Shown piece by piece: positions 6,322 to 40,400 of a DNA stretch of 64,000 bases. The stretch spans positions 222,941 through 286,940 of the forward strand of contig CAJNOJ010000118.1 in assembly GCA_905250025.1 (NCBI GenBank). Reading direction: 5' to 3'. Source of the DNA: Adineta ricciae. Taxonomy: Eukaryota; Rotifera; Eurotatoria; Adinetida; Adinetidae. Under the pieces are notes generated by a model. That model made no database searches and was not told the origin of the DNA. It was given only the letters and a program-made list of their open reading frames with translations. Position numbers and translations under genes: made by a program. Position 1 is the stretch's first letter; each line of letters begins with the position of its first letter.

Positions 6322-6497
6322 TGTTTATTCTGTTTCTTCATCTGCTGACGAATCGATTCATCTTCCATGTGTTTGTTGAAAAAGGAAAAATAAACTTGAA
6401 CAGTCAGCATAATCGTCCAGTCGAAAATGTTTTTCTTCTTCTTTCTCTTACGCAGAACAATGTCCTCATGAATCATACGTAGTTCTAAGATAGACAT

Positions 6498-6568
6498 GTC
6501 TCAGTAGTCTAATGGGAAGATACACGATTGAAGCTCGTATGATCCAAGTTCGATTCTTGGCTGAGACA
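6498..6568 (+). tRNA. tRNA-like gene, anticodon position GAA (copy 1)
   Basis: This 71-nt sequence folds as a cloverleaf. The acceptor is GTCTCAG/CTGAGAC (7 bp). The D stem is GTCT/AGAT with loop AATGGGA. The anticodon stem has 4 bp (ACGA/TCGT) plus one C-A mismatch, with loop TTGAAGC. The variable loop is 4 nt, and the T arm is CCAAG/CTTGG with loop TTCGATT. Internal pol III boxes are present (A box TAGTCTAATGG, B box AGTTCGATTCT), and a T6 run lies about 10 nt downstream. The anticodon position reads GAA (Phe), but the body does not look like a standard eukaryotic tRNA-Phe. It may be a divergent tRNA gene or the head of a tRNA-derived SINE. An identical copy lies at 12835..12905. Confidence 0.55.
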
Positions 6569-7126
6569 TTTAATTTTTTGGCTATTTCTCATGATCGCAT
6601 GAGAGCGAGATGCGCATTACGTCAGGTCATACACATGAGTCATTCAATTTCATTTCAGACAAGACAGCAAAAGCGTGAACAATACAGTCATTCGTTATCT
6701 CATACAAACGACTTGCTATATGATCTGTGATGTTATTTATTATGTTAACAAGGTCAACGATTGAAACTGAGACCTGAAACGATTTGTTTGAGAGAACTCG
6801 TTGAAATCTAATTGTAAATGGGCAAAGTGACAACTCGGGTCTCTCTTATCGTATGTTCTATACTAGTTGACAGCATTTATCCTTTCTTATTCGTTCTGCT
6901 GTTTTGACACGTGCGCGATATAACACATACTAAAGTTCAGAGAAAAGAAAAATGCACTCATACTTTTTTGCCTCATCATCAGTAAGGTGTATCGCGTTCT
7001 TCTCAGTCGTATTTCGTAGATCTCTACATACATGTCGTTTTTTGTTTTACCATCGACGTTGCAAACATCAACTTCAGGAACTTATCAACCGACCATTCTC
7101 AGTGAGTTCAAAATCGAATCGTCTGA

Positions 7127-12834: not shown

Positions 12835-12905
12835 GTCTCAGTAGTCTAATGGGAAGATACACGATTGAAGCTCGTATGATCCAAGTTCGATTCTTGGCTG
12901 AGACA
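12835..12905 (+). tRNA. tRNA-like gene, anticodon position GAA (copy 2)
   Basis: Identical over all 71 nt to the element at 6498..6568, with the same cloverleaf, A box, B box and downstream T run. About 17 of 18 bases upstream and about 20 bases downstream are also shared; beyond that the flanks are only loosely similar. It lies in the same orientation, about 450 bp before the second OYE gene. Confidence 0.55.
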
Positions 12906-35428: not shown

Positions 35429-37245
35429 TTAATGTGTGGGCTGTTGAATAGGAAACTTTTGCACTCGATGGTTTGCGTATTCGGTAATATAAAGATTACC
35501 GTGCGGATCGAATGCTAATCCATAGGGAAGACGAATTGAATTCGGTTGACTCGTACTGTCAACAATGATAGTACCCTGTATGGCTCCTCGTGGCCATTTC
35601 ATTATTCGATGATTTCCTGTATCGCTCACGTAGACAGTGCCCAACTGATCGATCACGATTCCTTCAGGATGGCGTAGTTGCGCGAGATCATTCCCTGCTG
35701 ATCCATTACCGGCTACAACGGTACCTTGTCTTGCACCTTTTTCCCATTTCATTACACGATGATTGGCGGTGTCAGATACGTAGAGTGAATGATTCCGATC
35801 AATGAACACGCAAGTGGGAGTGTTAAGTTGACTGTTGCTGCTTCCTTTTTCATGACCGCCTGCTACTATCGTTCCTTCAATATCACCAATTCGATATCGT
35901 CGCACTTCATGTGCTAGACCATGGCTGATATATAAAGTTCCCTCATCGTCCATTGTTCCCCCACGGCCATCGATATTGGTGGCAAGTAACTGTTCGCTAA
36001 TCCCCTTTTGGCGAAACCATCGAACGGCTCTTGCCATATACCCATCAAAAGTGATGACACTGTTTGTTTCTTCGTCGAAAATGACGTCGTACGGATACTG
36101 CAGCTGATGAGTTTTATTTCCACCAACTACGATTTCACCACGATCCGCACCCTTGGCCCAGACAGAAATACGATGATTGTTACGATCAGCAACATAGATC
36201 GTCTCATCACTGTCGACATATAAACCGACGGGAGAATCGAGCTGTTTGACGTCACTGCCGGCATCATACCCTCCAGCAACAATCGATCCGCTTTGACTCC
36301 ATGTAGCATTTGGATGAATGTCAACCCAGCTTGAACGTAACGACGGTACTGAAATGAGATCATTTCAACAGTAGTATCATGTAAATTACGGTAATTACCT
36401 TCCTCCTTCAGACTTTTCACTCGATATCTCAGCAGCTGAAGTGTGTCAGCAGATCGTTTCTCTAGAATTTCCAACTGTTCCAACTTATTATCGTATTGAT
36501 TGATACTACTACGATTCTTAACGGAATAGAATAATAACACTGTGTAGCATAGAAATGAGATGGGAATAATCCAGAACATTCTCTTCCCACTTCTTTCTTT
36601 TAAGTTCGGCTCCGATTTCACCTTCGCTATTGTTTGAAATTCGGACATTTCCGCCTTGTACACAACCATTGATATTTCTTCGATATTTTTAGGATTATTG
36701 TGATGTATACTGTCCAGCTCAACAGTAGCATATTCGTCTTCGGATTCCATTGCACCTAAATAAGATTATCAACAGATATTGATCTCAGTTTTGAACGTTC
36801 CGAAGAACTTACGCTCAGACTTCTTGTTATCAACATCTGGAATGGGCTCATATAGCAAATCTGGAAGCGTCATTAATAAATCGTTCTCGGGTTGATTTAC
36901 ACAACCATTGAGTCGCATCTTTTTTGCGTGTTCTTAGTTGACAAAAAGTACAGTAACACATTAGTTTAAAAAAGTTCAACAACTCAGGTTACCTTTCAAT
37001 AGATTCACTGCATCATAACATTTTATTTCTTTGAGTGCTTGGATTAAAAACGACACACTATTTCCACTAATTTTGTTCTGTTCGAAAAGCGATTCCATCA
37101 GACGAAGATTACCACTAAGAGAAAAATCGTCTCGAACCCGTCTTGGTACAGTCGAACCAAGATAGAAGTGGAGACATTCTCGATCTCTATCGCTAAGGCG
37201 ATCTTGCAGTTTCAATAAAAGACTACGTACTGTCGAATCATCCAT
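35429..37245 (-). CDS. Death-effector-domain / transmembrane / NHL-repeat protein
   Basis: Four exons (37245..36993, 36932..36813, 36755..36399, 36348..35429), all joined in phase 1, give 549 aa. Residues 1-84 look like a death effector domain: LLLKLQDRLSDRDRECLHFY, then LMESLFEQNKI and LIQALKEIKCYDAVNLL, the six-helix pattern of FADD and caspase-8 DEDs. An acidic linker precedes one transmembrane helix at about 184-204 (MFWIIPISFLCYTVLLFYSV) with basic residues on its N side, which suggests a type II protein with the DED in the cytosol. A short coiled coil follows, then about six NHL beta-propeller blades (GLYVDSDETIYVADRNNHRI, LYVSDTANHRVMKWEKGA). This would link an extracellular propeller to DED signalling. 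It is related in its propeller to 53057..54248. Confidence 0.75.
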
Positions 37246-37473: not shown

Positions 37474-40400
37474 TCAGTCAAAGAATTTTTCGGGTAATAT
37501 CAGCAATTGTTTCAAATCTTCTTCGCATTTCTTGGTAATTTCAAATTGCGTGGCATGAAATTCGATCGTTTCACGTATTGGAACTTTCCCATCGACCTTT
37601 TCCGTGCCAATGTATGTGACTTGATAAAATGCTGGTTTCACGTTGCTCAACGTATCGAATCGAAAAAGAGAAGATTTCTGTTGCTCCAAACGACCAAATT
37701 CATAACGAACCATTCGTTTGAACAAGATAATTTGCACTGAAGGACGCAGCAAATCCATTGCAATCGTAAGGCGCGGACTAGTTCCACTAAGAAGATCCGT
37801 TTCTTTCGGGTTTTTAAATATTGAATTTACATATTGAGGGAATAGTTCATGTTTAGAATCGATTTCCATCTCTGTTTCATAAATCTTATACAATCCGTCA
37901 TGACGTTCTTCGCCACCTCGGACAACACGAACCCATTCTGTTGAAACGAACATAAATTTTGTTAATTTCTTCTTGTCATCAAAGATCAACGAAGTTTTAT
38001 TTGGTGCGATGTCATAACAAGCGCAAACAAGCACGTACTTTGCTACTGACTTTTTCGTTGGCTCCTACGAAGGAAATAGCAGCTGGTTCGATACAATGAT
38101 CGATGTACACGACTTACGCGTTCGTTCGTAATCGTTTTCACGTCATTTTCTTCAAAAACATATTCAACATGATTGTTGACGATGAGTTGGTTCAGTTCTT
38201 TGATATTTTTTGCTTTTATATCAGTCATTGTTGGAGAAGGCTTGAGAAAAAGTTGACCCGATGAAATAGTAAGCATTAGTTGTGCATTTGCAGACAGCGA
38301 ATACTTTTTACCGAATTCAGATAACGATGAAACTAATTTGTCGGCAGCATTATTTTCAGAAGAACTGTTTCCATCGAGATCAACAGTGAAGTAGCCATTG
38401 GGTGATAAATTCCATTTCACGCGACTGGCTGTTGTTTTCATACGATTGAAGATAATATTCCAATTGGCGGTGTTGTCAGATAAGGATGACATTGTCGATG
38501 AAGTTAATGAAGTAGCAGCAGGTGCAGCAGTGTTAATCAATTTTATTTGAGGGCTCGATTCTTTTGCTGTTGCATTCGAGTTCTTTTCTTCTGTCACTTT
38601 TGATCTTGAGTCAACAGATGCAGATCTCGAAGCTAGTCTTCGGTGCTTACTGCCGCTGCGTTTTTCTGGTTTAGGTACAGTAGAAGGCTCATGATCCAAA
38701 GACATCGCTGAGGTTTTCGAATCCGCTGAAGATCGTCGCTCGTCCATTGGCACGTCTTTCGGTCTTGATTTTCTAGGTAATTTGGCAACTGGATTGGGCA
38801 ATGCTTCTATAGGTTGAGACCTGACCGGTGGCTTTGCCGTGCCCTTTGGTTTACGTGACGCATCTCTGACAGTGTCGGAGTCTGAAGTAAGTTCCGTAGT
38901 TGTGCATGGCTTTTCTACAGTAGATTTTTCTTGAATACCTTGCGAAGTAAGCCATTGTTCGAATTCTGCATCTTGTGAATTGGTGTTTGCTTTCTGCTGT
39001 TTCGAAGGTGCTGTGCGCGTGGTCGATGATGATCGTGACGTGTGTGATGTACAGCGTCTTGAAAAGAAATGACGTTTCGCTGCTTCGTATAGCTTATTGG
39101 GCGTACTATCTGATGGACGCACTTTTTTATCGAATTTTTTCATAAATAATGGATATTCGTTCGGAAGTTTAGCTTCTATTTCGTAAACTCGATCTAACTT
39201 AATCTGCTCGCCGGTTTTTGGTGCATCAACAGCGCGCGCAAATAGTTCAGCCAAATATTTACATTCATCGGATCTTGTATGCTTTTCATGATAGTCAGCA
39301 CACGCTAAATGCACATCACAGATAATTCCTTGAGATGCCGCGCCAAACGAGTCAACAATATGATCAACGACTATTTGTCGGGTGATATTTGGTATAATCG
39401 CTTTCGTTGCTGCTTCATACGACAATGGCTCATCCATATTTCTAATTTTGAATAATTCACCCCAATAAACCTGCAATAGACAACTCATTGATGAAACTAA
39501 TCGACTTCGAAGATCAGAGTCTCACCCAGTATTGATCACCGTCCAAATCTGATCCTGACATTTCACTTGGATGTGGTCGTGGACCTACTTGCGGAAAAAC
39601 AATACAATCGCGTATGCATTTTCTCAATTCAGGAAGATCAACAGCGGTCAGTCGTCGAAAATCACCTGGATATAAACAAGGCATTTTAGCAACTAAAACA
39701 TCGCCTAGAAAAACAAGAAAAGCAATTATATTTTCGTCATACAATCGACTTACCCGTCACAACCACGTAAGTACTCTCATCAGAAGAATCAAAATCTTTG
39801 TACTGAATAAAAACCTGCCCATACGTTAGCGTTTTCGTTTCATCAACAACCCCGAACATATATCGTGCTTCATTCAATGGCAAAGGTATATTGTTCTTCA
39901 ACAAATCATCGGTTGTATTGGAATAACGGAGTTTTCTCGATTCTTCGTGTTTATTTAATTGGTCAAAATTAGTTAACGCTCGATTTTGATACGACGCGAA
40001 CTTATCATACCGATTACCCAAATCCGACAGTAACATAATCACTTGATTATTCAATTTCAACGGTACTAGAAGAGACCGAAAACAGATATACGAAACAGAA
40101 ACAATGGAAGCAAACATACATGGTTTGCTATATTCACATATTTCCAAAGTCCAATCGGGTGAATCAAATTTTTCCATAGATGGACGTACTTTAATAAAAT
40201 ACTGATCGAATCTGGACCCCGGCTCGATGGCTAACATGCCTTTGCAACCAGCAATTCGAACTTGATAAGCTGACGGAACATCCTCTCTTCTTCTCAATTG
40301 AATATTTAATTTTACTGCAATTAATCCCGCAACACCCCAAGACATTGTGCCAATACCATCAGTGAAACAGTATTTGTTGTCGTTGGTTTTCACGTCTGGA

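Follow-up and report, generated by a model that had tools for sequence, protein, structure and literature searches.

The question raised by this locus is whether a death effector domain (DED), a membrane helix and an NHL beta-propeller are carried by one protein, as the initial annotation proposed, and, if so, whether such an architecture stands alone. The window, i.e. the whole stretch of 64,000 nucleotides of Adineta ricciae DNA that was analysed, holds the gene in question on its reverse strand.

A four-exon gene joins a DED to an NHL propeller

The sequence confirms a gene model in which four exons lead from the DED to the NHL propeller within one gene (Table 1). The splicing of phase-1 exons that was originally described is borne out, as all joins are in frame with GT-AG ends, and the predicted protein contains, in order, the DED, a linker, a single membrane helix, a coiled-coil-like stalk and the propeller. 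Without splicing, the exon 1 frame would end at a stop codon only four codons beyond the donor. The heptad a/d score of the stalk is equalled by 92 of 5000 shuffled sequences, which is a weak indicator of a coiled coil.

Table 1. Features of the predicted DED-TM-NHL gene (window positions)
Feature	Position	Strand	Description
Whole coding region	35429..37245	-	549 aa; predicted splicing in frame
Exon 1	36993..37245	-	DED exon of 253 nt with a phase-1 end; one of 58 loci with such an exon
Intron 1	36933..36992	-	60 bp, phase 1, GT-AG
Exon 2	36813..36932	-	120 nt; putative cytoplasmic linker without known domain; kept in copy L010
Intron 2	36756..36812	-	57 bp, phase 1, GT-AG
Exon 3	36399..36755	-	357 nt; linker, predicted membrane helix, start of stalk
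Intron 3	36349..36398	-	50 bp, phase 1, GT-AG
Exon 4	35429..36348	-	920 nt including stop; NHL beta-propeller
DED core, residues 7–78	37012..37227	-	Pfam DED and family profile
Predicted membrane helix, residues 185–203	36520..36576	-	Kyte-Doolittle mean 1.94
Coiled-coil-like stalk, residues 204–243	36400..36519	-	heptad periodicity, weak evidence

A copy of the gene (L010, C118:186446) lies 73 kb away on the same contig, is ∼95% identical at the DNA level, and retains four exons and three introns with all splice ends kept (exon 4 being readable only to the end of the locus). It is also the only place in the genome with similarity to exon 3 at E <= 0.01. The overall substitution values (dN 0.051, dS 0.087) indicate mild constraint only and, as the copy is recent, with introns as similar as exons, it is weak evidence by itself. 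The in-frame ATG at the start of exon 3 of the window gene is a GTG in the copy, and a later in-frame ATG is common to both.

The exon 1 domain is a DED with an altered charge triad

Exon 1 alone matches the Pfam DED profile (PF01335) over residues 7–78 with an E-value of 3.4e-7 and 30.9 bits, short of the curated cut-off of 35.9. The assignment gains from the relatives of this exon in the same genome: 30 of 31 aligned DED exons match PF01335 at E <= 0.001, and a profile built from these 31 exons finds 21 sequences in the PDB at E <= 0.1. Caspase-8, FADD and cFLIP account for 20 of them (a caspase-8 chimera included), and the remaining one is the CARD caspase Dronc. The best values are 3.2e-7 for caspase-8 DED1, 0.0039 for FADD and 0.039 for cFLIP. 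The single exon 1 sequence gave no match to the PDB in phmmer. Of the two checks that the initial annotation had proposed for this domain, the profile search thus came out in favour of a DED, whereas the structure prediction was divided: the model of exon 1 alone does contain six helices, but at low confidence (pLDDT 57.6), and a Foldseek search with this model returned nothing significant, death-fold chains being among the weak matches. Since the model is poor and the fold search not significant, the DED claim rests on the profiles. By profile comparison the exon 1 domain is a true DED, an assignment that is moderate for the single sequence and firm once its relatives are included.

An E/D-RxDL charge triad is given as a DED feature in a published account (PMC4558505). 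In the window DED the RxDL motif is changed to CYDA, so that the triad is not intact. Among the 31 aligned DEDs, R is replaced by C in 26 and L by A in 24, with D kept in 27. RxDL is retained in L039, beside a helicase, and in L041, a DED-only frame, neither of which is membrane-linked as far as can be read. As most receptor DEDs have CxDA or a close variant in place of RxDL, their DED-DED binding may differ. The C-terminal domain is an NHL propeller: the whole window protein scores 103.9 bits for NHL against a Pfam cut-off of 20, in four stretches, and the PDB relatives of this part are designed Pizza propellers and the NHL domains of Drosophila Thin, PknD and TRIM71.

The window gene belongs to a large family with exchanged C-terminal domains

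Comparison of the exon 1 protein with the genome gave 66 places at E <= 1, whereas the PF01335 profile gave 61, of which 13 lie above the curated cut-off. Merged by hand, the two sets amount to 69 DED places, and 58 of these were used as anchors and taken as separate loci (C210:26700 is the second DED of L039). Left out were two partial second DEDs, C100:290777 (L016) and C496:50792 (L017), as well as C100:292808, C216:4530, C496:54817, C294:94556 and the places on C280, C14, C198 and C49. The weak places on C198 and C49 were considered as receptors and rejected, their frames (L093, L094) being unlike receptors by eye, and were not counted.

The Pfam scan covered 51 of the 58 loci, with one frame per locus taken downstream on the strand of the DED (all except L011, L014, L023, L042, L051, L057 and L058). 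Above the Pfam cut-off, the partner is an NHL domain in 12 loci (window included), a jacalin-like lectin in 11, TPR in 9, DM9 in 4, GH18 in 2 and a DEAD-type helicase in 1 (L045); 19 loci have no assigned partner, among them L039, whose helicase frame falls below the cut-off. L012 and L033 are NHL-like by eye or tblastn and stand outside the 12 Pfam-supported NHL loci. In 10 further NHL loci the DED is 29–57% identical to that of the window, and the NHL frame lies within 1.5–1.8 kb downstream on the same strand. Such linkage far exceeds chance, with at most 0.93 loci expected versus the 12 observed (P 3.5e-10), where the expectation treats all 2777 first-look NHL candidates as independent across the 58 loci. 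The genome as a whole has 18 jacalin matches, and 10 of these have a DED match no more than 2 kb away. The aligned DED frames are free of stops in 57 of the 58 loci. The window gene, which the initial annotation had singled out as the most unusual architecture in the window, is therefore not alone, and is a member of a family of several dozen genes in which the sensor part is exchanged.

Two smaller classes may be described here. At two loci on C124 (L043, L044) one gene combines a DED and a membrane helix with the first part of a GH18 chitinase-like domain, and the TPR class (L054–L056, L075, L076, L079, L081, L082 and L084) has TPR arrays in addition to a DED and a membrane helix.

The manner of exchange was followed on a tree built from 57 DEDs (85 columns), which has few supported forks; L085 (57 aa, with a stop inside) was dropped, and L012 and L033 carry an NHL label there without confirmation by Pfam. 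The distribution of partners requires 8 changes for NHL (3 forced by starred branches) and 5 for jacalin (2 forced), and a single change for TPR, which forms one clade. In the AU test a single clade is rejected for NHL (p 9.7e-5) and for jacalin (p 0.016). As the DED tree rejects a single origin of the NHL type, the sensors have been swapped. A GT in phase 1 at the position of intron 1, a putative donor, is found in 47 of the 58 DED exons (a mechanical count, with L080 taken at a shortened alignment), as would be expected for the exchange of phase-1 exons.

The membrane helix and its proposed orientation

In an open frame 150–650 nt after the DED, a 19-residue segment with a mean hydropathy of at least 2.2 is present in 40 of the 58 loci, compared with 3/58 on the antisense strand and 10/46 upstream. 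At a threshold of 2.5 the separation is sharper (35/58 downstream, 0/58 antisense, 3/46 upstream), and at 1.7 it weakens (44/58, 14/58 and 22/46, respectively). The predicted helix of the window protein, below the 2.2 cut, is modest for the family, and is argued for by its position and its presence in the copy L010. It is the only hydrophobic segment between the two domains. The DED starts at residue 7 and, judged by eye, no signal peptide precedes it in the window protein, so that the helix would be a signal anchor.

The orientation of this anchor was approached from charges and from N-glycosylation sequons. The window helix has 5 K/R in the preceding 15 residues and 3 after it; over 45 loci, the positive-inside count places the DED inside in 19 and outside in 12, with 14 ties (p 0.28), and the jacalin class leans the opposite way (2 for DED inside, 3 against). 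Sequons number 34 in the NHL frames versus a shuffled expectation of 24.5 (10 of 300 shuffles as high) and 26 in the jacalin frames versus 18.3 (17 of 300 as high), whereas the DEDs are close to expectation (24 versus 22.2) and the TPR frames are depleted (11 versus 23.8). The excess in NHL and jacalin and the depletion in TPR favour an outside location for the NHL and jacalin parts and do not favour one for TPR. TPR arrays are usually cytosolic, and the topology of the TPR class, which forms one clade and is sequon-depleted, may differ from that of the other classes. The extracellular placement of the propeller, which the initial annotation had called extracellular-type, is thus plausible only, the charge count not being significant and TPR occupying the same place in 9 loci.

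Candidate signalling partners in the genome

If the receptor DEDs signal by homotypic contact, other DED proteins would be sought as partners. Two small DED-only frames of about 126 aa that keep RxDL (L041 on C173, L042 on C128) could be adaptors for the receptors. Further candidate partners are the DED-helicase genes on C210: in L045 a DED frame adjoins a helicase that finds RIG-I as its best match in the PDB (E 1.6e-33), with a Helicase_C match downstream; and in L039 helicase-like frames are preceded by two DED exons. On the same contig, L086 has a DED exon beside a RIG-I-like helicase frame. The pairing of a DED with a RIG-I-like helicase in L045 would tie DEDs to immunity. Near the end of the L045 gene, a cysteine-rich frame resembles a RIG-I regulatory domain by eye and gave no Pfam match.

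Caspase-like proteases are abundant, with 84 Peptidase_C14 matches in the genome. The nearest of these to any of the 69 DED places lies at 11.9 kb, and the DED caspases whose search the initial annotation had recommended were not found in the window's genome, nor was a FADD-like gene, the domains being sought exon by exon so that split or diverged ones could escape. There are 27 Death matches, none within 60 kb of a DED place, and the CARD profile gave no match to the genome. As 38 TIR matches are present, DEDs are not the sole domains of such kind here.

A portion of the caspase-like genes is associated with NHL propellers. Among the 150 best NHL matches, at least 22 are paired with a C14 match at a distance of no more than 4 kb. 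In eight such loci (L069, L088–L092, L072 and L073, on C409, C453, C561, C364, C329, C263, C818 and C188) the caspase-like domain is followed by the propeller with no strongly hydrophobic helix between the two, and L069 has them in a single open frame; in three other C14 loci (L068, L070, L071) no NHL was seen by eye. These genes likely form a soluble sensor-protease family, judging from their sequence. Together with the DED-TM-NHL loci, they show that NHL propellers sit on both DED-membrane proteins and caspase-like proteases.

Proposed mechanism and alternative readings

To the computed gene model, DED, NHL propeller, family and sensor exchange, we add an inferred membrane orientation, ligand, clustering and immune role, and arrive at single-pass type II receptors with exchangeable sensors that would trigger a defence or cell-death response by DED clustering; we give this reading a probability of roughly 0.6. 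The N-terminal DED would lie inside the cell and the internal helix would act as signal anchor, with a stalk, possibly a coiled coil, presenting the NHL propeller outside as a putative ligand sensor. Across the family the DED and membrane helix would be kept, and the C-terminal sensor (NHL, jacalin-like lectin, DM9, GH18, TPR) exchanged. On ligand binding or clustering of the sensor, the DEDs would come into proximity, and through homotypic contacts their cluster would attract further DED proteins and set off the response. The proteins are probably receptors that signal by DED clustering, and their role is probably immune. For a broader scheme we see even odds: one DED-helix chassis would have been coupled repeatedly by phase-1 exon exchange to propeller, lectins, chitinase-like, DM9 and TPR domains, the DEDs would be the common inner signal of membrane and RIG-I-like RNA sensors, and the NHL-caspase-like fusions would form a second arm.

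The orientation could be otherwise. On an internal membrane (ER or mitochondrion) the protein might be a scaffold, with propeller and DED both cytosolic or both on the lumen side. Such a reading would accommodate the sequon-depleted TPR arrays at the sensor position and the non-significant positive-inside count, as well as the in-frame fusion of NHL to a caspase-like domain without a membrane helix, from which it follows that NHL can work in the cytosol. It is nonetheless unlikely, because a single helix must set its two ends on opposite sides, and because an outside location is favoured by partners such as jacalin, DM9 and GH18 and by the excess of sequons in NHL and jacalin frames. It is also conceivable that DED clusters kill directly by recruiting a DED-bearing caspase without an adaptor, in the manner of the receptor-to-death route first suggested for this protein. 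That the DED is nearest to caspase-8 DED1 among solved structures, in a genome rich in caspase-like matches, speaks for this. Against it stand the absence of C14 matches within 11 kb of any DED place, six C14 loci without a DED (where intron-split or diverged DEDs could be missed) and the altered RxDL motif; with DED-only frames that could serve as adaptors, the adaptor-free route is only a guess, and a rather improbable one.

Two further readings would dissolve the receptor itself. Exon 1 might be a separate DED gene, exons 3 and 4 forming a TM-NHL gene that starts at the exon 3 ATG or later. The in-frame ATG in the window gene would allow it, but its replacement by GTG in L010 (the later ATG is shared), the joining of every exon in frame and phase, and the recurrence of DED followed by NHL at 11 other loci and by jacalin at 11 more make this very improbable. 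We give hardly any credence to the DED exon as a fast-spreading exon that comes to lie beside unrelated genes without receptor function: DED exons are indeed numerous and several genes are near-copies, but nearly all DED frames are stop-free in their aligned part, the phase-1 GT recurs at the same place in most, and order and spacing are consistent.

Comparison with known systems

Caspase-8, FADD and cFLIP are soluble adaptors, proteases or inhibitors. They share the domain by profile, whereas here the DED sits on a membrane protein and has CYDA in place of RxDL. TNF-receptor-type death receptors, such as Fas and the TRAIL receptors, are membrane receptors with a death-fold domain inside. They are type I proteins whose death domain is C-terminal and is connected to a DED through FADD; in the window gene, by contrast, the DED would be on the receptor itself and N-terminal, with an NHL propeller as the sensor, and the domain of the window protein is a DED and not the TNFR-type death domain (PF00531). 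Insect PGRP-LC is an immune receptor of type II: its signalling motif, which is RHIM-like, is N-terminal, and its sensor, a peptidoglycan-binding domain, is C-terminal. The proposed receptors would resemble it in the type II plan, the N-terminal signal part and the C-terminal sensor, and differ from it in motif and sensor domains. The propellers of Thin, TRIM71, Brat and PknD belong to the same family as that of exon 4; their partners are RING/B-box or kinase domains, and of these proteins only PknD is a membrane-bound kinase, its propeller being on the outside.

The link of death receptors to FADD is described in PMC4558505, and on this source, together with general background, vertebrates have the DED on FADD and caspase-8, one level downstream of the receptor. 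If our reading is true, receptors that carry the DED themselves would mean that death and immune signalling is wired differently here, and the swapping of sensors on an unchanged signalling part would illustrate the way in which a repertoire of receptors arises in an animal lineage. DED-bearing RIG-I-like receptors are reported for lophotrochozoans, with one in the brachiopod Lingula (PMC8998645). There, as would be the case in the receptors here, an N-terminal DED is grafted on an immune sensor, but those proteins are cytosolic RNA sensors and not membrane proteins. Ctenophores are credited with one or very few DED genes (PMC11797021).

In bdelloids, an expansion of C14 proteins has been documented, with 101 in A. 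vaga and 69 in A. ricciae (PMC11258130), which compares with our 84 C14 matches, a number of them adjoining NHL propellers; unlike the DED receptors, the eight C14-NHL loci showed no DED and no membrane helix. The term 'NHL' is absent from the main text of that paper, and the authors of this 2024 study of the bdelloid anti-fungal response state that metazoan genes were not closely explored (PMC11258130). A survey of rotifer lectins was restricted to proteins that lack membrane regions (PMC8878817).

Our literature searches for bdelloids with death effector domain, or with NHL repeat, found none, and those for rotifer, death effector and caspase gave unrelated papers only. The combination of DED, NHL and transmembrane returned, by title, cancer and cell-death papers in which NHL presumably mostly stands for lymphoma, and DED with jacalin gave only mussel proteomics (by listing). 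Wider searches, judged by title and abstract start, showed no such family, and public protein databases may hold such models. In the papers searched, the initial statement that no named family has the DED-TM-NHL order therefore holds. The family with exchanged sensors, rather than a single protein, is the main new point; it looks like an innate-immune receptor family not found in print, and would give concrete candidates for innate immune sensors of an asexual lineage.

Genomic surroundings

Promoter and repeat scans of the gene region gave nothing informative. The neighbouring genes, as the initial annotation had recorded, encode an SK potassium channel and an RNA-dependent RNA polymerase of the eukaryotic type. 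The polymerase (PF05183, window 38046–39521) adjoins the DED-TM-NHL gene and is of a family tied to small-RNA pathways. Elsewhere in the window, two tRNA-Phe (GAA) genes are found ∼6 kb apart, at 6497–6569 and 12835–12905.
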